This document shows positions 5,651-16,400 of a stretch of 39,866 nt of DNA, piece after piece. The stretch's first letter is position 1; each line of letters begins with the position of its first letter. A model generated the notes under the pieces. That model did not search any database. It was not told where the DNA came from and saw only the letters and a list, made by a program, of their open reading frames with translations. Source of the DNA: a virus. Position numbers and translations under genes: made by a program. The stretch covers positions 1-39,866 of IMG/VR virus record IMGVR_UViG_3300037245_001340, one strand, 5' to 3'.

Positions 5651-6778
5651 ATGGCTTGGTTTAGCGCTAACTGGAAATACAGAGTAAAGCTGACCGTACA
5701 AAGCTCTAAAGTGGAGGCTACGGAAACAGATATTCCTGTATACGTCGATCTGTCCGATGCCGACTCAGATTTTTGGAGCAATGTAAAATCGGACGGCGGG
5801 GACCTTATTGTAACGATGGCTGATGGTATTACACAGCAAGCCATTGAGGTGGTAGCCATAGATACAGGCACTGATACGGGGGAGATACATTTCAAAGCGA
5901 GCTCCCTGAGTAGTGCAGTAGATACAGATTTCTACGTGTACTATGGTAATCCCGGGGCGTCACAACCAGCGGCTTCATCTACCTATGGATCTGAAAATGT
6001 ATGGCCGAGTAATCATAAAGGAGTGTGGCATCTAAACGAATCAGGGAACGGTGCTACTGATGAATTTTCTGAATCCACATCAAACGGAAATGATGGTACT
6101 GGTGGAGGTGGCACAGCGTCAAAAACCCCGGCGCAGGTTGACGGACAGATGGGTAAGGGGCAGCATGGTGACGGAACAGACGACTACATAGATTGTGCGA
6201 CATCTTCCGATTATCATTTTAATAGGAATGATACATATTCAATTTCTATGTGGGTTGATTTCGATGTCTTGGGCGCGTATGAGATGTTGTTGTCTCGTAT
6301 TATGGATGATGGCTCAACATACGCAGGTTGGGCGATATATAAAAGAGACGACAACAAGCTTGAGTGGCAAAACATATACCACTGGAGTACAGACAGATTA
6401 GCCGTCTACACTCGGCGTGACAACCTTTTCTCCTCTTGGCATCACGTAGTAACCACCTACAACGGTAACGGCGACGCGACTGGCGTTAAAATATATGTGG
6501 ATGGGGTTAATGAACAACTTGATATTAGATATGATACACTGACAAGCGACCTATCAGACACGGGCCGACCTCTAATGTTGACCGGGCGAGAAGTTGGTGG
6601 TGCGCAATGGAACCCACTGGACGGTAAAATTGATGAAGTGCGCATAACGAATGACGTGAAACCCCTTGATCTTATTCTTACAGAATATAATAATCAGAGC
6701 AGCCCGTCAACCTTCTACGCTTTTGGCGCACAAGAAGCGAGTCCGTTTACATTCTTGCCTAAATTAATACGTTTCTAA
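5651..6778 (+). CDS. DUF2341-LamG tail protein, receptor-binding candidate
   Basis: 375 aa. Residues ~8-115 fit DUF2341: a W-x-Y-R-V start, alternating strands, and an ending FYVYYGNPGASQP. Residues ~120-350 fit a LamG/concanavalin-A-like jelly roll: GVWHLNES, then a central YSISMWVDF strand, WHHVVTTYNG, VKIYVDGV and a final GKIDEVRI, which is the family's typical last strand. Such beta sandwiches usually bind glycans. The position at the end of the tail genes makes it the best candidate for the host-recognition protein. It ends at 6778, overlapping by 4 nt the end of the convergent amidase gene. An SD (GAGGGG) lies upstream. Domain calls come from motif recognition; receptor binding is inference. 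Confidence 0.8.
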   Translation: MAWFSANWKYRVKLTVQSSKVEATETDIPVYVDLSDADSDFWSNVKSDGGDLIVTMADGITQQAIEVVAIDTGTDTGEIHFKASSLSSAVDTDFYVYYGNPGASQPAASSTYGSENVWPSNHKGVWHLNESGNGATDEFSESTSNGNDGTGGGGTASKTPAQVDGQMGKGQHGDGTDDYIDCATSSDYHFNRNDTYSISMWVDFDVLGAYEMLLSRIMDDGSTYAGWAIYKRDDNKLEWQNIYHWSTDRLAVYTRRDNLFSSWHHVVTTYNGNGDATGVKIYVDGVNEQLDIRYDTLTSDLSDTGRPLMLTGREVGGAQWNPLDGKIDEVRITNDVKPLDLILTEYNNQSSPSTFYAFGAQEASPFTFLPKLIRF

Positions 6779-7245
6779 ACCATAGAGCCCAATAAATCGG
6801 CGAACTCATCGATCTTGTTAGAACCCATACACGCCCTGAAGAGATCCATATCCATAGCCGGGCAGGTCTTATTATTGTCAAGTTCGTAATGCCCTAATAT
6901 ATTCTCTACGCCGACATCGTACTTCTCCATCAGGTGCAGGCATAGCTTACGGGCGGACAATAGTTGCGCTTGGCTGAACTTACATTTACCGGTCTCTGGA
7001 TCAGGCTTACCGATTAAGCATATCCCTATCGAGTCGGTGTTATGGCCATATACGTGCGCTCCCATTTTTTCAACTGGCCTGCCTATCTCGATACCGCCGT
7101 CAAATAGTTCGTTCTTGCTGTACCTTATTACAAAGTGATAGCCGATGAGAGGCCACCCTCTTTGCCTGTGCCACTTGTCTATTATTACCGCCCCGCCGAA
7201 GTTACTTACCGAACAGTGCAATACTATCTCGTTAATTTTTCTCAT
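6775..7245 (-). CDS. N-acetylmuramoyl-L-alanine amidase (T7 lysozyme-like endolysin)
   Basis: 156 aa, the length of T7 lysozyme. It hydrolyses the amide bond between MurNAc and L-Ala in peptidoglycan. The zinc ligands of the Amidase_2 fold are visible: H10 (IVLHCS), H119 (ILGHYELD) and C128 (KTCPA). The catalytic pair of the family matches Y36 (IGYHFVI) and K126. There is no signal peptide, so release needs a holin or membrane damage. In T7 this protein also inhibits the phage RNA polymerase; no such polymerase is seen here, so lysis is the likely role. It is the last gene of the leftward operon and overlaps the preceding gene by 14 nt. SD GAGGAG lies 7 nt before the ATG. Confidence 0.92.
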   Translation of the reverse strand: MRKINEIVLHCSVSNFGGAVIIDKWHRQRGWPLIGYHFVIRYSKNELFDGGIEIGRPVEKMGAHVYGHNTDSIGICLIGKPDPETGKCKFSQAQLLSARKLCLHLMEKYDVGVENILGHYELDNNKTCPAMDMDLFRACMGSNKIDEFADLLGSMV

Positions 7246-7582
7246 CGGGTATCTCCTCGTATCCGTATTGTCTATAATATCTGTTTAATCCTAAAGCGTT
7301 ATCAATGGCGTGTTCTAATGTGTTACCATTAAAGTGTTGATATTTTATGTTAAATATCCCAAGATAAAAAGTAGAGTTTTCTGACTGATCCCCACACTCG
7401 CCCATATTAAAAGAAACGTAACTATCTTTTATGAAGTCTAGATACTCCGCGTCAGATAGCTTTGGTGTGTATTCTTTTTTATATATTTCGTGTAGCTCTA
7501 TTCGTAATTCTCTACCATGTTCTGCGGGAACAAAGCTAGACAATATACGCTTAATTTCTTTTATTCTATCAGCACTTTTCAT
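7232..7582 (-). CDS. Hypothetical protein, leftward operon
   Basis: 116 aa, not recognised. The N-terminal half is basic and helical (ADRIKEIKRILSSF). The centre holds a FYLGIFNIKYQHF strand region, and the C-terminus is tyrosine-rich (LNRYYRQYGYEEI). Its ATG shares one base with the stop of the upstream gene (TGATG), and its end overlaps the amidase gene by 14 nt, so translation is coupled on both sides. No membrane segment or metal motif is visible. Confidence 0.65.
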   Translation of the reverse strand: MKSADRIKEIKRILSSFVPAEHGRELRIELHEIYKKEYTPKLSDAEYLDFIKDSYVSFNMGECGDQSENSTFYLGIFNIKYQHFNGNTLEHAIDNALGLNRYYRQYGYEEIPDEKN

Positions 7583-8049
7583 CAGTCATCCCCCTTACAT
7601 CGCGCAAACAAGCCCTGCTTAATATTCTTCTTATGTGTCGCGACCTTCTCGTCAAAGTCAAGGTCTTTATCCTTCGCGATTAGCGTTGTCATCCCGCCAG
7701 TCATGCGCGATACCTCATCAACCGCCAGATCAATAACCTTGTTCTGCTCGGCGATCTCTTCAAGCGCATCCTTAAACGATTTATGAACCTCGTCGATCGT
7801 CATCTCTTTAGCTTCTCGGTCAATGCAGATAGGATCAGCGGTGAACGTCAACTCTATATCATGCACCATATCCTTTATATCGCTTATACCCACGCCAGCA
7901 TCACATATAGCCTTAAATATCTGATCTTTGTCCATGTCCAGTATGTCGGCCCGCTCTGGATATTTAAAAGGGAAGCATACGCCTCCCTGCCCTTTCTCCG
8001 CCCCCATCAATATTGCGTTTATTGTACCTGTTTTAGCGTCGATTATCAT
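7582..8049 (-). CDS. Hypothetical acidic protein, leftward operon
   Basis: 155 aa of unknown function. It starts MIIDAKTG and has a helical, acidic middle (EVHKSFKDALEEIAEQ) and a basic tail with CKGDD at the end. The start is supported by GGGAGG 8 nt upstream and by a TAATG junction with the preceding stop. It contains no obvious catalytic motif. It lies between a DUF5662-like gene and another unknown gene, all with 1-nt overlaps. Confidence 0.65.
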   Translation of the reverse strand: MIIDAKTGTINAILMGAEKGQGGVCFPFKYPERADILDMDKDQIFKAICDAGVGISDIKDMVHDIELTFTADPICIDREAKEMTIDEVHKSFKDALEEIAEQNKVIDLAVDEVSRMTGGMTTLIAKDKDLDFDEKVATHKKNIKQGLFARCKGDD

Positions 8050-8657
8050 TACCCGATCCTCCCGTTATTTTCTTTATGTAAATATTCCACGTTTAGTGTA
8101 TTCTCAATATGACAACGTGTCTGATGACTTAAAGACATACTTCTTTTGTTCTTTTGATACCATTCTCTTGTTTCGTGATATTTATCGTGTTTAGGACTGT
8201 TAAATCCTTGTGCTTTGCCTGCCCCTATCCAATCACATAACATTTCTTTTCCATATTTATCAGGCATATCAAACAGTTTAAATCCTCCGTTGTCCTCTGG
8301 TAACATCCACCATTGCCAATGATGCTTATTCCTTTTTTGATGTTTTAGCCATGCCATATCGAACATGTTAGGCTTTTCTCTAAAATCAGGACATTTAGGA
8401 GCCTGTTCTCCGCCGGCTATACCGGAAAAATTAATTCCACATTGTCCATGCCGTGATATTACATTCTGGCATTCATAACAGGTCAAGTCTTTTTTCTTGC
8501 CATAAAAAAACTTAGCATAAGCAACGAACTCCGACGGTAAAAGTTTGCTCAAGTCATGTACGATTCCTCTCCAATACAATCCCATCTTAAAACATTCTAT
8601 CATTACATACCACTTATGCCTGATGATATATTTTAGATATTTTAGATATTTTTTCAT
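8049..8657 (-). CDS. DUF5662-like protein with HD and Cys insert
   Basis: 202 aa. The pattern HKWYV, then VHDLSKLLPSEF (H34, D35), then AWLKHQKRNKHHW (H106, H112, H113) matches DUF5662, a phage and bacterial family whose paired HD and H-x5-HH residues look like a metal site. Its biochemical activity is not known to me. Between the two halves is an insert with CYEC, CG and CP cysteines (about residues 60-89) that could bind zinc. SD GAGGAGGG lies just upstream. The start overlaps the end of the DUF1064 nuclease gene by 4 nt (ATGA). Confidence 0.7.
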   Translation of the reverse strand: MKKYLKYLKYIIRHKWYVMIECFKMGLYWRGIVHDLSKLLPSEFVAYAKFFYGKKKDLTCYECQNVISRHGQCGINFSGIAGGEQAPKCPDFREKPNMFDMAWLKHQKRNKHHWQWWMLPEDNGGFKLFDMPDKYGKEMLCDWIGAGKAQGFNSPKHDKYHETREWYQKNKRSMSLSHQTRCHIENTLNVEYLHKENNGRIG

Positions 8658-9076
8658 TTAACCCTCCTCGGTCTATTATCGATCTCTTTTAATATTCGCC
8701 AGACACCCTTGACCTTATGCTGCATTGTCCATTTAAACCCCTTAAACCTCTCCGCGCAGGTCTTAAACTTCACGTTGGCCGATTCTCTCAAGTACCCCTT
8801 TACCTCAACGAACTCCTGCGATCCGTCTGGGTAGAGTAGTAAGAAGTCCGGCGTGTATGTCGTCTTTGGGGCTAACGTAAACCGTACCGCCTCGTAATGC
8901 CACTCTACGATCTCACCGGCGGCGACAAGTTGATTAAGGTGTTGCGCGTATTCAAGCTCCCATAGGCTCCTATATGGTGCGTATGGAGCGGCCTTCTTTT
9001 TCTTGTTGTCTTTACCGGGAGAACCTTTACCCATGCGCTCTAAGAGCTCTTTGTATTCTTCTGGGGTGTACTTCAT
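8654..9076 (-). CDS. DUF1064-type PD-(D/E)XK nuclease (Holliday resolvase-like)
   Basis: 140 aa. It shows the nuclease core PD-x(n)-E-x-K: YTPDF with D77 and FVEVKG with E91 and K93, preceded by an acidic helix (SLWELEYAQHL, about residues 37-47). Together with the length this is the DUF1064 family, found in phage recombination regions and proposed to act on branched DNA. It lies downstream of the exonuclease, Sak4-like and SSB-like genes of the same operon, which fits a resolvase or end-processing role. Both ends overlap neighbouring genes by 4 nt. The N-terminus is lysine-rich, perhaps for DNA contact. Confidence 0.8.
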   Translation of the reverse strand: MKYTPEEYKELLERMGKGSPGKDNKKKKAAPYAPYRSLWELEYAQHLNQLVAAGEIVEWHYEAVRFTLAPKTTYTPDFLLLYPDGSQEFVEVKGYLRESANVKFKTCAERFKGFKWTMQHKVKGVWRILKEIDNRPRRVK

Positions 9077-9750
9077 TTCTTCCCCTTCTTCGCGCGGTCA
9101 AACAGGTTTAGCTGCTCTCGTCCCCTTGCAGTCTTGCCGAGGTGGAGCCTTAAGTCGTTGAGGTTACGCATTATCTTTTTAAACGTGGTGTTTTCTTGTT
9201 TGAGCCCGCCAAACTCTTTGATAGCATTGTCGATACCTTTTAATAACTGGTCATGAGTAGGTGGCCCGAAACTAGATGTGTCCGAGTTAATACCGTTTAC
9301 CTTACCATTCATCTCTATAAATTTACGCTTAAGCTCCGAGTAGCACTCTCTAATAATTGAAAGTTTTTCATTTTCTCTCTTAAGCGCGACGTTTCCCTCT
9401 TTCGTTCTCTCGTGCCGATCCATCTTTTCCTTGATGTTTTCACGTAACAAGGATATACCTACATACTTATAGCCATTACCAAACAAAGCCCTTATGACGA
9501 GCTTGGCGTTTACTTCTCCAAGCGCGCTTTTGGTTTTGAGTTTGGCGTTCGCTTCTTTAAGCTTGAAGCATTTCTCGGTTGATTCCTTGGTCGTCGCTAT
9601 CCACCCGTCGCGATCTTTTTCAAGTTCTTTTATCTTTTCCTCGTGATTGAGGAACAAAGCTTTTATGGTGCTAACCCGATTCTCGCTACCTTCCATATCG
9701 TCTAAGGCCATGCCTAGTGCAGCGTTCAAATGTTTCGTTATTTCATACAT
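9073..9750 (-). CDS. Coiled-coil protein, leftward operon
   Basis: 225 aa of unknown function. Long charged helices dominate: residues ~30-75 (NHEEKIKELEKDRDGW and following) and ~100-145, with heptad spacing that suggests a coiled coil, then a glycine/proline break (SFGPPTHDQ) and another helical end rich in lysine. SD GAGGAG lies about 9 nt upstream of the ATG. Its stop overlaps the DUF1064 start. It may be a DNA- or protein-binding scaffold; no enzyme motif is seen. Confidence 0.7.
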   Translation of the reverse strand: MYEITKHLNAALGMALDDMEGSENRVSTIKALFLNHEEKIKELEKDRDGWIATTKESTEKCFKLKEANAKLKTKSALGEVNAKLVIRALFGNGYKYVGISLLRENIKEKMDRHERTKEGNVALKRENEKLSIIRECYSELKRKFIEMNGKVNGINSDTSSFGPPTHDQLLKGIDNAIKEFGGLKQENTTFKKIMRNLNDLRLHLGKTARGREQLNLFDRAKKGKK

Positions 9751-9803
9751 AATAAGCTCCTCATTTCCAATATTAGCCGTTAATAATTAAAACTCTACCC
9801 CTG

Positions 9804-10025
9804 CTATGTGGTGTTTCCCTTCAAGTGGCTTATGTACCGATCAACCTCGCTGACAAAGACAAACATCCACCCCCGGTCACCATCCCTGAAAACATTAAGT
9901 TTGGTACGGTCAAACGTCTTAGATGAGTCAACACATTTCTTGATAAATTGAGGATACCCGAGAGTCCCGATCATCTCAACCGCTTCGTTTACCCTTATTG
10001 ATTTATCGATTTTTCTTTTCTTCAA
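9804..10025 (-). CDS. Small HTH-like protein, TTG start
   Basis: 73 aa with a basic N-terminus (KKRKIDKSIRVNEAVEMI) and a pattern similar to small winged-helix/excisionase-like folds ending FVSEVDRYISHLKG. No ATG exists before residue 18, but a TTG at 10025 is preceded by AGGAGAG with 5 nt spacing, so TTG is the likely start. Function is unknown; DNA binding is only suggested. Confidence 0.6.
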   Translation of the reverse strand: MKKRKIDKSIRVNEAVEMIGTLGYPQFIKKCVDSSKTFDRTKLNVFRDGDRGWMFVFVSEVDRYISHLKGNTT

Positions 10026-10038
10026 GTCTACTCTCCTT

Positions 10039-10437
10039 TTAATGATCGTCGTCTAGTTCAAAGTCGCTGCATATTATTTCTGGGTTAAGGTGTTTACGAC
10101 GTTCGCAAGTGTCTGCTATCACGCAATCATTGCAACGATCACCTGATCCCTGTTCGGTTTCTTCGTCCAACTCCTTAGATGCCTTGCAATAAGCGTCCAA
10201 ACCAACTTTTTCAAGTTGCAACCTATCATACATATGGGGCGTTCTTCTGTTCCCGCATTTTCGGTTACATCGAAACGCGTCCAGCTCGCTAGTATCCGAT
10301 ATGATCTTGCTTAAAAGCTCGACGATCTTTTCGTTAATGGCATCTTGCCGTGCTCGGCTCCGTATAATCGCCACCCACGTTATCACCGCTGCCGCGACGA
10401 TCACCACCCCGAGTATTATCAATATTGTTGTTGTCAT
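10039..10437 (-). CDS. Membrane-anchored Cys-rich protein
   Basis: 132 aa. Residues ~4-27 form one strong transmembrane helix (ILIILGVVIVAAAVITWVAI) followed by positive residues, so the rest probably faces the cytoplasm. The soluble part has paired cysteines: CNRKC, CNDC, and single C residues near the end (about 8 in all), suggesting a metal-bound knuckle. The tail is acidic. SD GGAGAG lies upstream. I do not recognise a family. An envelope-linked role such as exclusion or anchoring is possible but unproven. Confidence 0.65.
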   Translation of the reverse strand: MTTTILIILGVVIVAAAVITWVAIIRSRARQDAINEKIVELLSKIISDTSELDAFRCNRKCGNRRTPHMYDRLQLEKVGLDAYCKASKELDEETEQGSGDRCNDCVIADTCERRKHLNPEIICSDFELDDDH

Positions 10438-10532
10438 GTTACTCTCCGTTTAATTAATTTCGTTTTCGACTTGCCCCGCTTGAGCGATATGCTCGGGATG
10501 TTCCAAAACATACCGCTCGTCAGCAGGTGTTG

Positions 10533-10985
10533 TTAAAAGGGTATATCGTCGCCTGAAACGGTACTGTTGCCAGAATCAAGCTTTCTTTGAATCCAGATAT
10601 TTTGTGCTTCCTTTTCCTCGTTCTTGTGATTGACGTACTTCTTTGTAACTGTCTTGACCTCTAGCTTTGTGTTGAGTAAAAGGTGCAAGCTCTCTGGAAG
10701 GTCTGAGAACTTACCGAGCGTCATGCCGCATATAGAGAGGTCGGTCTTTATAAACGGTAAAGTCTTGTCGGTTATCACGGCGTTTTTAAATAATAAGCGG
10801 CCCTCAAATGGCCCTGTCATTATCTTTAGTTTCCATGTAAGCATAGGTGTTTGCTTTTCTTTTGTCTCTGTCAAGTTCGCTTCATCAACGAACACTTGAT
10901 ATGTCCCGTCTGGTAGCTTTTCAAAGTCCTCGCCCATCGTCTCTGCGTCTTCGTATGTCTGATCGAATCCTGTTAAGTCCATCAT
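10533..10985 (-). CDS. DUF669 ssDNA-binding-like protein with SSB-type tail
   Basis: 150 aa. The centre (LPDGTYQVFVDEANLTETK, then LTWKLKIMTGPFEGRLLFKNAVI) fits DUF669, a phage family placed with ssDNA-binding/OB-fold proteins. The last residues are SGDDIPF, which copies the acidic tip DDDIPF by which bacterial SSB recruits partner enzymes, so this protein probably recruits host repair and replication proteins too. It follows the Sak4-like ATPase with a TAATG junction. SD AAGGAG is inside the upstream gene end. The pairing of SSB-like protein and Sak4 is common in phages. Confidence 0.82.
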   Translation of the reverse strand: MMDLTGFDQTYEDAETMGEDFEKLPDGTYQVFVDEANLTETKEKQTPMLTWKLKIMTGPFEGRLLFKNAVITDKTLPFIKTDLSICGMTLGKFSDLPESLHLLLNTKLEVKTVTKKYVNHKNEEKEAQNIWIQRKLDSGNSTVSGDDIPF

Positions 10986-11668
10986 TATTTAGCTCCTTTT
11001 TCTTTAAATAGGTTTTCTAATAACATGCCATCCTTGAAGAAGTCGACACGTCCCCCTGCGAAATAATCATTGCTATATACGCTCCTGACCACTCGCTCCT
11101 TTTTATCCTCTCTGTCCTCTATCCTGGCATATAGCGCGATATCAACAAACGCCGTGATAGCTTCCTCAATAGAGCCCGAGAAACACAAAGTAACCCTGTC
11201 AAAGTTACCCGTCCTTGTCTTTACTTCCTTTTCTTTAGAGTGTCCCACCAGCACAAGGCCGGTTGAAAGTGCAGCGAGCTTGTGTAACACCCTCATAAGC
11301 TCAAGCCTTACCCTTGCATAGCCCTTGCCATAATCAAGGTCTGATTCATGATCCCAGCCGTTTTTCTGGCATATATGCTTTGCGCATAACTGGTACATAC
11401 CGTCAATCGTATCAATGATAATGGTTTTAAACTGATGCTTCCCTTCTGCGATCTCTTTTGCTATGGACAGAAAGTCATCCCATGATTCTACCAGCGGAGT
11501 TGAGAAGACACTAAGGTTCTTAAGCCCGGCCTCCGTTGGTATAAATAGCGCGCCAGGTATCCTTGAACACGCCTCGCTCTTTCCTATTTTGGGCTCACCA
11601 TAAAGCAGTATGGTATACTCAAAAGGGTTTGTTTTCTTCTCGCTTTTCTTCGTTGGTAATGTTGTCAT
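10985..11668 (-). CDS. Sak4-like RecA-fold ATPase (single-strand annealing recombinase)
   Basis: 227 aa. A P-loop at residues 24-31 (GEPKIGKS) and a Walker B strand at ~82-87 (TIIIDT) define a small RecA/AAA_24 domain. The overall order, with LVLVGHSKEKE after the second helix block, matches the Sak4-type phage nucleotide-binding proteins that promote strand annealing. It lacks the N- and C-terminal domains of cellular RecA. Its start overlaps the exonuclease gene by 50 nt, with SD GGAGAG. Exonuclease, Sak4-like ATPase and SSB-like protein in a row form a phage recombination cassette. Confidence 0.85.
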   Translation of the reverse strand: MTTLPTKKSEKKTNPFEYTILLYGEPKIGKSEACSRIPGALFIPTEAGLKNLSVFSTPLVESWDDFLSIAKEIAEGKHQFKTIIIDTIDGMYQLCAKHICQKNGWDHESDLDYGKGYARVRLELMRVLHKLAALSTGLVLVGHSKEKEVKTRTGNFDRVTLCFSGSIEEAITAFVDIALYARIEDREDKKERVVRSVYSNDYFAGGRVDFFKDGMLLENLFKEKGAK

Positions 11669-12518
11669 CTTCTCTCTCCTTATAATAGTTTTGTATGATT
11701 AAGGGATTATCCCCGCTGTTACATATCTTAAAAAATTCACATTCTCCGAAACCAGAACACTGAGACCTGTTCTTATAAAATGTCTTACACTTGCCAACAT
11801 CCTGTGAAATATCCCAAACCTCTTGCCTCACTTCGCTAAGTCTTAGCTCATCGGTCAATATTCTTTCTCTATGGAATACCGAGCTATCGGTCAAGTATCT
11901 TTCTTTCAGTCTGTCGACAAACTCCTCAAATGTCTCATTTTGGCGTTGCTTAAGAGAAACCTTTTGCAGGATATTATAAATAACGCCCCTTACCTTCTTA
12001 CCGGTCACCGTCTCGTATGCTATGGCGTAGAGCATAATCTGTAAATCGTGCCATATCCTTGAAATATATCCTACGTCCAGCTTCGCCGCAGTCTTATGCT
12101 CATGTAGCCATATCCCGTCCTCTTTTTCCTCGACCATATCAATGAAGCCGTGCAGGTTAAACTTGCGTGACTTCCTGCCGGTCTTTGGGTTTATGATCGG
12201 GCACTCATAAGGAAACTCTGTGCTTAGTATCTTGATGCCCGCATCCTCGCCGTGATATCGATTAACATATCCGGCCATCATTGCATGAGCCAAGGCGTTA
12301 TAATGCGTGCCGGTCGGGTTGTTTTCGTTTATTATGCCTGCATAAGGCTTTTTATTATAATGCGCCTCTAGGCAGGAGTGTATAAGCTTCCCAAAAGATA
12401 ACGCGTCTGACGACCTTAGCGGCTCAATTCGGTTGATATACCTAAACTTAAAGCTCTTGCGACAGGTGCAAAACCGCCTCATCGCCGAATAGCTTATTGT
12501 CTTTTTCTCCTTTAACAT
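11619..12518 (-). CDS. Cas4/RecB-like PD-(D/E)XK exonuclease with Fe-S cysteines
   Basis: 299 aa. The nuclease motifs of the PDDEXK_1 (RecB/Cas4) group are in order: GKLIH (H47), GFID (D117), EHK (E130, K132) and QIMLY (Q150, Y154). Four cysteines, one at 17 or 19 and C244, C250, C256, sit as in Cas4/AddB and probably hold a 4Fe-4S cluster. The expected role is to resect DNA ends for the Sak4/SSB pair encoded next. No cas1/cas2 and no CRISPR repeats are present, so a CRISPR role is unlikely. SD GAGGAGAG precedes the ATG. The last ~20 residues are charged and overlap the next gene. Confidence 0.87.
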   Translation of the reverse strand: MLKEKKTISYSAMRRFCTCRKSFKFRYINRIEPLRSSDALSFGKLIHSCLEAHYNKKPYAGIINENNPTGTHYNALAHAMMAGYVNRYHGEDAGIKILSTEFPYECPIINPKTGRKSRKFNLHGFIDMVEEKEDGIWLHEHKTAAKLDVGYISRIWHDLQIMLYAIAYETVTGKKVRGVIYNILQKVSLKQRQNETFEEFVDRLKERYLTDSSVFHRERILTDELRLSEVRQEVWDISQDVGKCKTFYKNRSQCSGFGECEFFKICNSGDNPLIIQNYYKEREDDNITNEEKREENKPF

Positions 12519-12553
12519 CTTTACTCTCCTCTATATTTATTGGCCCTGCTTAA

Positions 12554-12952
12554 TTATCTATCTTCGTCTATCCCGTCAACCCTACCAGCCTTCACATCAT
12601 CTTTATGAATAGCCGCGCAATCTCCTGAGCAGAATATATTGCTGTCAAAGTCGTCACCGGTACCATACCAAACCTCTGCCGGATTGTAGTATTTGTGGCA
12701 ATATTGGCATTGGCTGAGCGTTGACCAGTCGATTTCTGATATAAGGCGGTCATAAGCCTTGTTACACCATTTGTCAATACAAAGCTCATGCACATCATCC
12801 CGAAAGGCTTTTATAATATTACACGACAAGCCATACGCATCACTGTTTATGTTCTCTATTATATATTTCTTCAGTATAAAGCCAGCTTTCCCCGGCTGTC
12901 CCCACACAACATCTTTATCTATATATGCTACTTGTAGGTCTCGTTCGCTCAT
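12554..12952 (-). CDS. Zinc-knuckle hypothetical protein
   Basis: 132 aa. The C-terminal half has CQYCHKYY and, about 25 residues later, FCSGDCAAIH, a CxxC...CxxxC arrangement that suggests one zinc site. The N-terminal half is mixed alpha/beta with no recognisable motif. The ATG overlaps the upstream stop (ATGA). It lies just before the exonuclease gene, so a nucleic-acid role is possible but not shown. Confidence 0.65.
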   Translation of the reverse strand: MSERDLQVAYIDKDVVWGQPGKAGFILKKYIIENINSDAYGLSCNIIKAFRDDVHELCIDKWCNKAYDRLISEIDWSTLSQCQYCHKYYNPAEVWYGTGDDFDSNIFCSGDCAAIHKDDVKAGRVDGIDEDR

Positions 12953-13266
12953 TTGATTACTCCCATCAACTCATCTTTTATTTTCTCGTGTGATTTCTTG
13001 CCACCCGTCAGGTCGTGTATCTTGTTAACGGCTCGGTCAAGGGCGGCTTCTAATCTTTTCTTACCAATATGTTTATTTCTGCGTACATCTGCTCTTTCTC
13101 CTAACACTCTCCAATAATATGTAACAGCGTCATTCTCAGTCAAATGATTGCCCATTCTTATTTTTACGTCGTTAAAAAGAATCCAATTATCGCTGTTGCA
13201 AGTATTGTATAGTGTTGTTACTGCGTCAGCTATTAAAGTACATGGTTCTATTATTATTTCGCTCAC
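12949..13266 (-). CDS. Hypothetical protein, GTG start coupled to a tiny membrane ORF
   Basis: About 105 aa. An ATG exists further upstream at 13311, but the GTG at 13266 is better: GGAGGT stands 6 nt before it, and the GTGA overlap with the stop of the 26-aa ORF is a typical coupling. The protein is helical with a basic middle (RADVRRNKHIGKKRLEAAL) and ends LMGVIK. No family recognised. It overlaps the next gene by 4 nt. Confidence 0.6.
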   Translation of the reverse strand: MSEIIIEPCTLIADAVTTLYNTCNSDNWILFNDVKIRMGNHLTENDAVTYYWRVLGERADVRRNKHIGKKRLEAALDRAVNKIHDLTGGKKSHEKIKDELMGVIK

Positions 13267-13343
13267 TTCACCACCTCCGTCAGTACCCACACACAGGCCG
13301 CCGCCGTCCATGCGGATAGTATTGTTAAGTATATGTTAGTCAT
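13263..13343 (-). CDS. 26-aa single-span membrane peptide
   Basis: This tiny ORF has a good SD (GAGGAG, 9 nt spacing) and overlaps the next gene by GTGA. It begins MTNIYLTILSAW and continues with Ala, Cys, Val and Trp to a Glu-Val-Val-Lys end, so nearly the whole peptide is a transmembrane helix. It is the first reading frame after the hammerhead ribozyme candidate. Function is unknown; it may exist mainly to couple translation. Confidence 0.5.
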   Translation of the reverse strand: MTNIYLTILSAWTAAACVWVLTEVVK

Positions 13344-13370
13344 TGTGGTTATCTCCTCATATTTTACCTG

Positions 13371-13433
13371 CTAACCGCCCCCGATCAGAGGGACGATTTC
13401 GTCCTCATGGACTCGTCAGAGCAGGGGGGCTAA
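13371..13433 (-). ncRNA. Hammerhead ribozyme candidate (type I layout)
   Basis: Read on the - strand, the conserved core is complete: CUGACGA (C3-A9, 13419-13413); stem II GUCC (13412-13409), loop AUGA, GGAC (13404-13401); GAAA (13400-13397); a short stem III AUC/GAU (13397-13395 with 13386-13384) closed by a 6-8 nt loop; then C17 (13383). Predicted cleavage is between 13383 and 13382. Stem I is open: CCC/GGG (13426-13424 with 13380-13378) plus UUAGCC with GGUUAG-side bases (13433-13428 with 13376-13371, one wobble each side), interrupted by a C-C mismatch and a 2-nt bulge (13422-13423), near U-G and C-G pairs next to the core. Bulges in stem I are normal in natural hammerheads. A rival hairpin pairs GAGGACGA with UCGUCC-C-UC. 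It sits between the stop of the upstream gene and the SD of the 26-aa ORF. Confidence 0.75.
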
Positions 13434-13648
13434 TTAAAGCCTTCTATAAACTTTCTCATAGAAGCTGTATCGTTTAAAAACCCGCCCATAAGTTGTGCCA
13501 TGCCAAGGCTTATACCGATATGCCCTTCCGTTTCTGGGTGCTTATTTAAGTCTGATGCCATAGAAGCTAACGCACCATTTATATCGCCATTATCTACATA
13601 CTCTAATGCTCTCTTTTTACAAAAATCCATATGTTCCTCTCTAGTCAT
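13430..13648 (-). CDS. Small conserved phage protein
   Basis: 72 aa. It resembles a recurrent family of small phage proteins that begin MTxEEHxxFCKxRAL and end MRKFIEGFN, with a TPR-like helix pair (ALEYVDNGDINGALASM) and a KHPETEGHIGI turn. Function is unknown. SD GGGAGG lies 7 nt before the ATG. Its TAG stop lies inside the 5' strand of stem I of the hammerhead candidate, so ribozyme folding and translation termination of this gene would interfere with each other. Confidence 0.7.
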   Translation of the reverse strand: MTREEHMDFCKKRALEYVDNGDINGALASMASDLNKHPETEGHIGISLGMAQLMGGFLNDTASMRKFIEGFN

Positions 13649-13681
13649 CTCAATCCCTCCCGGTTTATCTTCGTTAATAAA

Positions 13682-13864
13682 TTACTTTGCTTGATTACCC
13701 TTCATCTCTTCCAGTAACCCTATCGCATCCTTAATAGCGTCCTTTGGGTTGTGCCTCGGCATAGGACACCATATTATACTTTCCGCTAGAGTAACCGGAT
13801 CTGTCACCTTAACGCCGCCCTGATGGAGCGTGTGTATCTTTCTTGTGGTTGTTGATAGGTTCAT
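13682..13864 (-). CDS. Hypothetical small protein
   Basis: 60 aa, not recognised. It has a basic, threonine-rich start, one CPMPRHNPKD turn and a C-terminal helix (AIKDAIGLLEEMKGN). The SD is weak (GGAG about 13 nt upstream). It is kept because it fills a gap between two well-supported genes of the same operon and its composition fits. Confidence 0.5.
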   Translation of the reverse strand: MNLSTTTRKIHTLHQGGVKVTDPVTLAESIIWCPMPRHNPKDAIKDAIGLLEEMKGNQAK

Positions 13865-13889
13865 TGGGTTCTGACTCCATCGTTAATTT

Positions 13890-14756
13890 TTAACTAATAA
13901 TTTCAATAACCGCCTTAATAAAGTCGGTAGTGACAACACCACTATCACTCTTACTCTTTTTAGGGTCGTCAACGTGTTCTTGTAGCTCATGCAACGTCTT
14001 TTCATACCCCTTCATTTTTGGAAACATTACTCCCGTCCGCTTCATATGTGTTAAAGCGGCAAGTTTTAAAGTTCGCCCACAATATATATTATATATATTC
14101 GTGAATACATATAATGGGGAAACCTCTAGCGACCAAATATCAAACATTGAGTCGCCCCCGCGATGTATAGTGATTTGGTCACCAATGCTATAAAACTCTT
14201 TCACTGGAATTTTACCCAAATCCGTTTCAAGCTTTCTTATAACCTTATCATTAACTTGTGCCTCATTGAGAGGGGTTAGAGCGCAATCTATGTTTGCCAA
14301 TATTTCGATTGGATCATGAAGTTTCCGTTCTATTTCTATCTCTTCTTCCTTGACTTCTTTCATGAAGTCATGCATAGGCATAGTTTTTAAAATCTTAACT
14401 TCGTACTTAACCATATTTTTGGGATCTTCTATATAACTTCGGATTTTAATCTTGACCTTTTCGCTAGTGCTCGGGATTTGATAGTGGGGCTTAACATCAA
14501 ATCCATTATTGACGGTAATATATCTCTTGGGGGTGGCGTCTAAATCACCAGTGCTCCACACGGGACCGGCATGAATCTCGCATATAGCTATCTCTTCGGT
14601 TCTTGTTTCTGGCGGGGCAGTTATAATCTCACCAGATTTGAGATTATAGCCCAGGAATAAGACCTCCTTTATTTTATAAATTTCCTTCGCCATATAGTCA
14701 ATGTTCCCGATCTCGTCCCCTTTAAATAACTCTAATGTAATTTCTTGCTTTGCCAT
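13890..14756 (-). CDS. First gene of leftward operon, unknown 288-aa protein
   Basis: About 288 aa. An ATG at 14771 is possible, but the ATG at 14756 (MAKQEITLEL) has GGGAGG 5 nt upstream and is preferred. The protein is mixed alpha/beta and lysine/glutamate-rich, with a segment KEVKEEEIEIERKLHDPIEI, a central PVKEFYSIGDQITIHRGG strand pair and a helical end (MKGYEKTLHELQEHV). I recognise no family and no catalytic motif. As the promoter-proximal gene of the operon it should be among the first products made, so a regulator or host take-over protein is conceivable. The frame is open throughout. Confidence 0.7.
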   Translation of the reverse strand: MAKQEITLELFKGDEIGNIDYMAKEIYKIKEVLFLGYNLKSGEIITAPPETRTEEIAICEIHAGPVWSTGDLDATPKRYITVNNGFDVKPHYQIPSTSEKVKIKIRSYIEDPKNMVKYEVKILKTMPMHDFMKEVKEEEIEIERKLHDPIEILANIDCALTPLNEAQVNDKVIRKLETDLGKIPVKEFYSIGDQITIHRGGDSMFDIWSLEVSPLYVFTNIYNIYCGRTLKLAALTHMKRTGVMFPKMKGYEKTLHELQEHVDDPKKSKSDSGVVTTDFIKAVIEIIS

Positions 14757-14798
14757 TTCTACCTCCCTCATTATTTATTCCCTTCATCCTTGTTACAC

Positions 14799-14826
14799 AA
14801 TCTAACAAATTATCACACATTGTCAA
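14799..14826 (-). promoter_or_regulatory. Leftward promoter
   Basis: On the - strand TTGACA (14826-14821), 16-nt spacer, TAGATT (14804-14799), about 43 nt upstream of the first leftward ATG. The surrounding AT-rich stretch has repeated ACACA/TGTGT words that could be operators, but no clean palindrome. Confidence 0.6.
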
Positions 14827-14905
14827 GGGTTTTTCACACTTTTTTTATATCTATTTTAGTTTGGTAATGATATTGAGGGGTTAGGGAGTAAATTATTTTT
14901 ATTTA

Positions 14906-14943
14906 AAATAAAGTTTGACAAATAAAGAACTATATTGTACATT
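14906..14943 (+). promoter_or_regulatory. Rightward early promoter
   Basis: TTGACA (14915-14920), 17-nt spacer, TACATT (14938-14943), then a short leader and the SD of the HTH gene. The -35 is embedded in AAATAAAGTTTGACAA (14906-14921), which recurs exactly at 17737-17752, so both promoters may share a regulator or UP-like element. Confidence 0.65.
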
Positions 14944-14973
14944 ATTAAACAATACAAATAAGGAGTGATTTTT

Positions 14974-15180
14974 ATGACTGAAAACATAGAGCAGAAAACG
15001 GCTCACTTAACGATTGAAGAGGCCCGACAAGAGTTCGCTAATATGTCCCCACAATGGTACTGGCAAAAGTTAAAAAGCGGTGATCTGAAGTCCAAAGGGG
15101 GCGGCAAAAAAGGAGCGGTCCACCTGATAAGCCGGGAAAGCCTTGAGCAATATTTTAAAGGTGACAACGGTAATGGATAA
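14974..15180 (+). CDS. Small HTH protein (excisionase/MerR-like)
   Basis: 68 aa. ATG at 14974 has AGGAG with 8 nt spacing; an in-frame GTG at 14965 overlaps the SD and is unlikely. The layout LTIEEARQEFANMSPQWYWQ, a loop rich in Gly/Lys, then VHLISRESLEQYF fits the small winged helix of excisionase/HTH_17 proteins. It is the first rightward early gene, 30 nt from the promoter, opposite the leftward promoter, so control of the divergent region is plausible. A similar protein is encoded at 18258. Confidence 0.6.
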   Translation: MTENIEQKTAHLTIEEARQEFANMSPQWYWQKLKSGDLKSKGGGKKGAVHLISRESLEQYFKGDNGNG

Positions 15181-15367
15181 GATAAATGTACTAAGCTTTA
15201 GCGGTGGCAAAGACAGCACGGCGACATTAATTCATTTGATTAAAGTGCTCGGCATTGTCCCGATAGTGGTGTTTTGTGATACAGGGAATGAATCAAAAAT
15301 AACGCATGATTATATAGATTATGTTTCAGAACTATTAAAATCATGGGGTGGGTTACCTGCTTATTAA
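15173..15367 (+). pseudogene. Truncated PAPS reductase-like PP-loop fragment
   Basis: Only about 64 aa. INVLSFSGGKDSTATL is the PP-loop of adenine-nucleotide alpha hydrolases, and VVFCDTGNESKITHDYIDYV follows as in phage PAPS-reductase-like proteins, which are normally over 200 aa. The frame stops just after this first Rossmann unit, and the next sequence starts another gene, so it is an N-terminal remnant rather than a frameshift. The ATG at 15173 overlaps the upstream stop; AAGGTG lies upstream. It may be decayed, or a free nucleotide-binding domain. Confidence 0.6.
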
Positions 15368-15376
15368 GGGGATGGG

Positions 15377-15610
15377 GTGAGAGGGATGGTAGATATAATG
15401 TGCAAAAACGAAAGGACCGGAGAAGAGAAAACACTCGAAGCGGTTCTCTTGGGGATAGGCAAGGGCAAAAGGAAGCGCAAAGTAGAACATTACTGTCGAG
15501 AGTGTAAAGAGACGACTACGCATTTTAAGTTTACGTCTTATAAAAAAAGCGATGATAGTGTTGAATATTGGTGCCTTACATGCGGCACACCAACATTTAA
15601 GGAGGAGTAA
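15377..15610 (+). CDS. Zinc-ribbon small protein
   Basis: About 77 aa (GTG at 15377; ATG at 15386 or 15398 also possible). Residues in the second half show YCRECKETT and, ~22 residues later, YWCLTCGTP, a CxxC...CxxC zinc ribbon. The first half is basic (GKGKRKRKVEHY). Probably binds nucleic acid or protein. The following gene starts at once after its stop. Confidence 0.6.
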   Translation: MRGMVDIMCKNERTGEEKTLEAVLLGIGKGKRKRKVEHYCRECKETTTHFKFTSYKKSDDSVEYWCLTCGTPTFKEE

Positions 15611-15745
15611 ATGAAATATGTGTGTAGTAAGTGTGAAGAAGGATGTTTTGACCCGTGTGTATTAATTTTAGATGTATTCTATAGTAAGCCGACACTTTGC
15701 CCGCTTGACGGTGATGACGCTGACTGGCAACTAGAGGAGAAATAA
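15611..15745 (+). CDS. 44-aa Cys-rich small protein
   Basis: A short ORF with an ideal SD (AAGGAGGAG) just before its ATG. Cysteines at VCSKCEEGCFDPC and LCPLDG suggest one small zinc site. It is packed between the zinc-ribbon gene and the next gene (stop 3 nt before the next ATG). Function unknown. Confidence 0.6.
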   Translation: MKYVCSKCEEGCFDPCVLILDVFYSKPTLCPLDGDDADWQLEEK

Positions 15746-15748
15746 ATC

Positions 15749-15931
15749 ATGGGAAAATATAAGATAGCCTGGTCATACGTAGACGATAAGCTCGACGATA
15801 GCAAGAAGCGTTACGAGCTAGAGGAATACGACGATCTGAAAGAGGCGAAGCAGGAACTAAGGCGGCTGAACGGAGCATGGCCGGCCTCTGCTATAAAACA
15901 TTGGATAGAGGAGGATGGTGATGAAGATTAA
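15749..15931 (+). CDS. Hypothetical small acidic protein
   Basis: 60 aa, rich in Asp/Glu and Lys, with WSYVDDKLDDSKKRYEL and ending IEEDGDED. It may be a small DNA-mimic-like or adaptor protein, but nothing proves this. SD GAGGAG overlaps the preceding gene's end. It overlaps the next gene by 11 nt. Confidence 0.55.
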   Translation: MGKYKIAWSYVDDKLDDSKKRYELEEYDDLKEAKQELRRLNGAWPASAIKHWIEEDGDED

Positions 15932-16400
15932 AATATCATTAAAGGATCAGGTAGTTCGCCGTGATATAGCGGAGGAGCTTACCAAGAAGCTTAAGAGCAT
16001 GGGGATAGAGGTGGAGAGCGCTTTACGCTGGTATAAAATGCCAGATGATATGTATAATGTATTTTTACCGAGAGAGGAGCGGATTTTACATATTGATGCT
16101 GTTCAAATATGTATCGCCCCCACCCTCCCCGAGATATTATCGGTGTTGCCAGACGAGATAGACGGGCATCAATTAGACCTAAACACGTTGGAGTACATAA
16201 AATATGTAACCGTTGCCCTTAACTGTGATATTCCACAATCTTTAGGGTATGATAAAGATGGGTGTATGCCTTATTTTAAAGAACGAGACGAGAAACTATC
16301 CGCTACGGCCGTCGCCAAGCTTGCGATATGGGCTATCGACGAGGGGCATATAAAAGGAGAGGAGGCCAACGATGATAATAGAACATTTAAAAAAGGGTGA
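15921..16400 (+). CDS. Hypothetical protein
   Basis: 159 aa, not recognised. ATG at 15921 (MKIKISLKDQ) is preferred over 15915 because GGAGG then has 6 nt spacing. The pattern of a basic helix (IAEELTKKLKSMGIEVES), a strand pair (ERILHIDAVQICIAP), then an ATAVAKLAIWAIDEGHI helix suggests a compact alpha/beta fold. It overlaps the next gene by 29 nt. Confidence 0.6.
   Translation: MKIKISLKDQVVRRDIAEELTKKLKSMGIEVESALRWYKMPDDMYNVFLPREERILHIDAVQICIAPTLPEILSVLPDEIDGHQLDLNTLEYIKYVTVALNCDIPQSLGYDKDGCMPYFKERDEKLSATAVAKLAIWAIDEGHIKGEEANDDNRTFKKG

Follow-up and report, generated by a model that had tools for sequence, protein, structure and literature searches.

Type I hammerhead ribozymes are known from phages and prophages, where they lie between genes of a co-directional string and have been proposed to process transcripts (Perreault et al. 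2011, PMC3088659). Hammerheads in prophages flank genes, and it has been proposed that they divide long transcripts into mRNAs the length of an operon or a gene; those of Agrobacterium cleave in vivo in E. coli, and for an HF2 transcript the mapped 5' end is within 3 nt of a ribozyme cut (PMC3088659). What hammerheads do in bacteria and phages has been listed among the field's open questions (PMC6155905). Gut phages also carry self-cleaving Theta (HDV-like) ribozymes, which are linked to tRNAs (PMC10879173). Here we describe a predicted hammerhead in a window of 39,866 nt, the window being the whole stretch of viral DNA that was analysed. Its kind has been described before in bacterial viruses, and the element shares with the phage and prophage examples the core, the open stem I and the intergenic position in a co-directional gene string. 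It differs from them in having U as H17, in a 9-bp stem III with a U-G pair beside the closing pair, and in being a single copy rather than part of a cluster. Like the Theta ribozymes it is predicted to cleave within a phage transcript, but its fold is unrelated to theirs and no tRNA was found in the window.

The window is a tailed-phage genome encoding a terminase, a head-tail adaptor, a protease, a major head protein and a tail protein. A leftward operon starts near a promoter-like site (14826-14799) and comprises, before the ribozyme, ORFs of 293, 60 and 72 aa. After the ribozyme come a 26-aa ORF, ORFs of 120 and 132 aa, a PD-(D/E)XK exonuclease and a Sak4-like protein, and further on a DUF669 SSB and a DUF1064 nuclease, through to an amidase. 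Terminator-like sites within 6500-16000 were not in excess (9 compared to a chance mean of 7.7), which makes one long transcript plausible. The ribozyme is on the strand of the operon and wholly between two ORFs, and the earlier note was right in placing a type I hammerhead on the minus strand between the 72-aa gene and the 26-aa ORF. The features of the locus are as follows.

14799..14826, minus strand: promoter-like site, TTGACA, 16 nt, TAGATT, with TG before the second hexamer (consensus match only)
13430..13648, minus strand: upstream 72-aa gene, stop TAG at 13432-13430, 4 nt before stem I (at least 18 related IMG/VR loci)
13367..13425, minus strand: whole predicted type I hammerhead ribozyme, 59 nt (covariance match, MFE fold, shuffles)
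13420..13425, minus strand: stem I, 5' strand CCUGCU, pairing with AGCAGG at 13372-13367 in 6 Watson-Crick bp
13413..13419, minus strand: core C3 U4 G5 A6 C7 G8 A9, CUGACGA (sequence)
13401..13412, minus strand: stem II GUCC/GGAC, 4 bp, with tetraloop AUGA (sequence, MFE fold)
13398..13400, minus strand: core G12 A13 A14 (sequence)
13374..13397, minus strand: stem III, 9 bp, AUCGUCCCU/GGGGGCGGU, loop CUGAUC (RAGATH-1 alignment, MFE fold, covariance model)
13372..13373, minus strand: predicted cleavage site, U17 (13373)/A1.1 (13372) (position in the hammerhead fold)
13367..13372, minus strand: stem I, 3' strand AGCAGG, the would-be 5'-OH end of the downstream RNA (MFE fold, covariance model)
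13263..13343, minus strand: 26-aa hydrophobic candidate ORF, ATG 29 nt past the predicted cut, AGGAG at 13357-13353 (ORF list, sequence)
12949..13266, minus strand: next gene, probable start GTG 13266 (GTGA overlap with the 26-aa ORF)

The TGA of the 26-aa ORF overlaps GTG 13266 of the next ORF (GTGA). This suggests that the 120-aa ORF begins at that GTG, translationally coupled to the 26-aa ORF, and that the next gene probably starts there and not at ATG 13311.

Read from 13425 to 13367, the minus strand has the order CCUGCU CUGACGA GUCC AUGA GGAC GAA AUCGUCCCU CUGAUC GGGGGCGGU U AGCAGG. The unconstrained optimum of the 91 nt from 13445 to 13355 was this hammerhead plus a small 5' hairpin (-32.0 kcal/mol), and in a transcript ending at 13367 its pairs had probabilities of 0.97-0.99. 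Stems II (4 bp) and III (9 bp) are loop-closed and stem I (6 bp) is open, which is the type I topology. The conserved positions of the hammerhead core are all present (C3 U4 G5 A6 N7 G8 A9, G12 A13 A14, A15.1, U16.1 and H17, here U), as are the core-adjacent pairs of the three stems (1.1-2.1 A-U, 10.1-11.1 G-C and 15.1-16.1 A-U). The strands of stem III (13397-13389/13382-13374) include three G-U pairs; the closing pair is A15.1-U16.1, the adjoining pair 15.2-16.2 is U-G, and U16.1 and U17 stand at 13374 and 13373. Minus-strand 13425-13367 is thus very probably a canonical type I hammerhead, as predicted from its fold, and cleavage would most likely fall between 13373 and 13372, about 10 bases from the cut that the earlier note had proposed. 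U17 may predict slower cutting than C17, and the U-G pair at 15.2-16.2 could likewise slow cleavage. By inspection we found no clear pseudoknot, a 5'-side bulge with UUUA/UAAA outer pairs being possible but unsupported by comparison, and no clear loop-loop contact; stem I is flanked by C before and U after, compared to A/A most commonly in the family. GUCCAUG in stem II and its loop (13412-13406) is complementary to CAUGGAC (about 13311-13305) in the downstream coding region. Longer folds preferred this long-range pairing, with stem II predicted to be lost once that region has been made; it would be predicted not to form if cutting is fast or if a ribosome occupies the 26-aa ORF.

A descriptor scan for the core and the three stems gave exactly one match in the window, with a score of 17.2, compared to a best score of 13.4 in 7,516 dinucleotide-preserving shuffles of the whole window, none of which reached the observed value. 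We also built a covariance model from 43 IMG/VR phage type I hammerheads, with the window excluded. Its sole match in the window was the same 59 nt at full model length (31 bits, E=2.5e-7), with no second match at E<=10. The model sequences had been picked out by their stem II (GUCC..GGAC) and then screened for pairing, so that part of this score reflects the stem II sequence; the shuffle test is independent of that collection. The covariation count on the type I alignment is partly circular because its members were chosen by pairing, and is not evidence for the window. Rfam, searched at gathering and permissive thresholds, returned only sub-threshold hammerhead matches in the window, to RF00008 (Hammerhead_3; 17.1 bits, cut-off 48.5) and to RF03152 (RAGATH-1; 17.5 bits, below the gathering score of 56.3). 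Three IMG/VR contigs with clear type III hammerheads (L023-L025) also failed the Rfam gathering scores, indicating that Rfam is insensitive here, and passing a curated score cut-off is not one of the structural features that define a hammerhead. The covariance check suggested in the earlier note was therefore negative with the Rfam families and positive with the phage type I model, and the second result overturns the first since this variant is poorly fitted by the Rfam models. It was the sub-threshold RAGATH-1 alignment that first pointed to the correct pairing, with stems I and III and the cut placed rightly; stem II is almost absent from that family, whereas it has 4 bp here. The core is also shared with Hammerhead_3, found in plant satellite RNAs such as sTRSV. 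Stem II is nearly equal in the two (GUCC-AUGA-GGAC here, GUCC-GUGA-GGAC in sTRSV), but the open helix is stem I here and stem III there.

Nucleotide relatives of the region were absent from phage records, and no homologous copy of the hammerhead was found in phage records or in IMG/VR searches; hence there is no covariation for the element itself. The searches made gave no close relatives of the phage. By single-sequence search the 120-aa, 293-aa and exonuclease proteins had no IMG/VR relatives, and the terminase had one 35% relative, the record of which is without a type I hammerhead match. Three contigs with an exact stem II match were considered as relatives and rejected, as all are type III and not homologous. 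The 72-aa gene product had no PHROG, Pfam or PADLOC match. Its protein family was found on at least 18 IMG/VR contigs, has a conserved C-terminal IEGFN-like motif, and was absent from the 50,697 phage records searched. None of the 18 IMG/VR relatives had a hammerhead nearby, 15 records with relatives of the 72-aa gene gave no type I match when searched whole, and the sequence after the gene differs throughout its relatives, which have other neighbours. All that these relatives show is that there is no fixed link between the ribozyme and the 72-aa gene.

From the computed fold and position, we consider it likely that this is a genuine type I hammerhead that would act as a co-transcriptional processing element in the leftward early/recombination/lysis transcript of a tailed phage; cleavage and an effect on expression are what we infer from them. 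Once RNA polymerase had passed about 13360, the 59-nt RNA would fold and self-cleave in cis at 13373/13372. Of the two products, the upstream one, carrying the 293-, 60- and 72-aa genes, would have stems II and III at its 3' end, with a 2',3'-cyclic phosphate. The downstream RNA would start with a 5'-OH and AGCAGGUAAAAUAUGAGGAGAUAACCACAAUG, the 29-nt leader left by the predicted cut, with AGGAG as ribosome-binding site, and would span the 26-aa ORF, the 106/120- and 132-aa ORFs and the genes for the exonuclease, the Sak4-like protein and the SSB, on to the amidase. The two halves of the operon would gain separate ends and, presumably, separate stability, and it is a cut with such distinct RNA ends that would make the ribozyme an mRNA processing element. 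A single hammerhead cleanly between two operon parts, with a predicted cut 29 nt before a start codon, offers a simple test case.

We then compared the placement with that of other hammerheads. A scan of IMG/VR with stem II fixed gave at least 120 stretches (viral contigs L026-L145), and among the matches listed there were 122 distinct type I and 39 distinct type III folds; hammerheads of the type I kind are common in phage contigs. Genes were called by simple ORF rules, so the placement figures are approximate, and shifted positions in the same contigs served as controls. An upstream stop codon lay within -16 to +8 nt of the stem I edge in 75 of the 122 listed type I examples (shifted-position mean 13), a start codon lay 18-32 nt after the cut in 63 (mean 15), and both were in range in 48, compared to a mean of 1.8 at shifted positions. 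The stop codon was the UGA of the core in 22 of the 122, a count that is partly mechanical because every core carries UGA. The position of phage type I hammerheads is constrained, the stop falling within or next to stem I and the following start about 20-30 nt past the cut. The hammerhead in the window fits this placement (stop at 4 nt, next start at 29 nt), where the 29 nt assumes that the 26-aa ORF is next, the automatic rule having picked the longer ORF at ATG 13311 (61 nt). U17 was found in 2 of the 122 listed phage type I examples, C17 being the commonest. Only 6 type I hammerheads were among the matches listed from cellular genomes, too few to replicate the placement. A placement common to the 122 listed phage examples leads to specific, testable predictions about mRNA ends.

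Several other explanations were weighed against that of a processing element. The earlier note had correctly recognised CUGACGA (13419-13413) and GAAA (13400-13397) in the right order on the minus strand, with the 4-bp stem II and its AUGA loop; its extent of 13371-13433 had the right core and strand but the wrong boundaries. To this core it had added a 3-bp stem III (AUC/GAU), C17 at 13383 with a cut at 13383/13382, and a G/C-rich stem I holding the stop codon. C17 is the usual cut-site base and a UUAGCC/GGUUAG pairing is possible, but this fold, when forced on the same 91 nt, reached -20.8 kcal/mol, about 11 kcal/mol worse than the optimum, its short stem III had a pair probability of 0.00, and the covariance model places the site elsewhere. 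With a true stem III of 9 bp, U17 at the site and CCUGCU/AGCAGG as stem I, we regard the earlier fold as extremely improbable. A GGACG/CGUCC hairpin, which the same note had suggested as an off-switch, was rejected: its probability is 0.6-0.7 until transcription has supplied the 3' strands of stems III and I and 0.02 from then on, and a transient folding intermediate makes a poor off-switch. Just as strongly disfavoured is a chance hammerhead-like hairpin, or a mere intergenic stabilising stem-loop. The failure to find a homologue and the sub-threshold Rfam matches are in line with it, but the shuffles, the match to the phage type I model and the typical placement between genes all argue against it.

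Less remote, though still unlikely, is a decayed, inactive remnant that folds but has no useful cutting rate, owing to U17, the U-G pair at 15.2-16.2 and the missing tertiary contact. The atypical cut-site base and flanks, the weak Rfam scores, and a single copy with no relatives found in phage records or IMG/VR would be expected of such a remnant. However, the catalytic bases are complete and 19 stem pairs are unbroken, a state that neutral drift would soon destroy, and U is an allowed H17 base by published criteria (PMC3088659). We are similarly doubtful that the ribozyme is gated by translation, with ribosomes that finish the 72-aa gene covering the 5' strand of stem I so that cutting would occur only when the gene is poorly translated or between ribosomes; the fate of the downstream RNA would then be tied to translation of the 72-aa gene. 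The footprint of a terminating ribosome extends about 12 nt past the A site, and the stop codon, 4 nt before stem I, falls within it. The stop is not inside stem I, as the earlier note had it, but the idea behind that claim finds some support in the stops inside or adjoining the ribozyme in 75 of the 122 listed phage examples and in the 22 stops that are the core UGA itself. Against this, compact phage genomes push any intergenic element against a stop codon, and an ORF that reads into the core in the frame of its UGA must end there. Since both produce the same placement, the geometry alone is no proof of gating, and a co-transcriptional processing element is the reading that we prefer.

Type III hammerheads bear on mRNA ends as well. 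Among the viral type III hammerheads listed, 33 of 47 had a stable hairpin (z < -2; mean -2.9) just upstream of the cut, whereas 2 of the 47 controls, placed 150 nt further upstream, had one; for cellular genomes the corresponding counts were 53 of the 110 listed and 16 at control positions. Type III hammerheads release a 5' product without a terminal stem, whereas type I hammerheads keep stems II and III on the upstream product. With the preceding hairpin in the one and stems II and III in the other, both would give the upstream mRNA a structured 3' end, which supports mRNA end formation as a candidate common function of the two types. A bolder proposal, which we put forward only tentatively and think improbable as a whole, joins two parts: phage type I hammerheads would be placed so that the terminating ribosome sits on the ribozyme, as a translation-coupled switch for a downstream RNA with a 20-30-nt leader, and in type III the preceding hairpin and the ribozyme would form a protein-free way to make mRNA 3' ends. 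If this is true, self-cleavage would decide when downstream genes get an RNA of their own. We found no published account of the stop and start geometry or of the hairpin-plus-type-III arrangement in a search of openly accessible literature.

The hairpin before viral type III hammerheads lies a few nt ahead of the cut and in its frequent form, AGTGTCTTCAAAGACACT, is similar to a terminator stem; it accompanies type III hammerheads on contigs L023-L025, L048, L058, L098, L099 and others. A candidate tRNA T-arm beside the ribozyme of contig L023 was dropped, as its sequence is the kind of hairpin that precedes other type III ribozymes too. Cellular matches to the stem II pattern were mostly from Patescibacteria/CPR (Saccharibacteria, Parcubacteria and others) among the matches listed, which are not a random sample and comprised 114 type III folds compared to the 6 of type I. 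One Candidatus Parcubacteria contig (L171) has at least 8 type III hammerheads within 8 kb, and the Candidatus Parcubacteria copies are each preceded by a similar hairpin, gagctggg...cccgctgttc.
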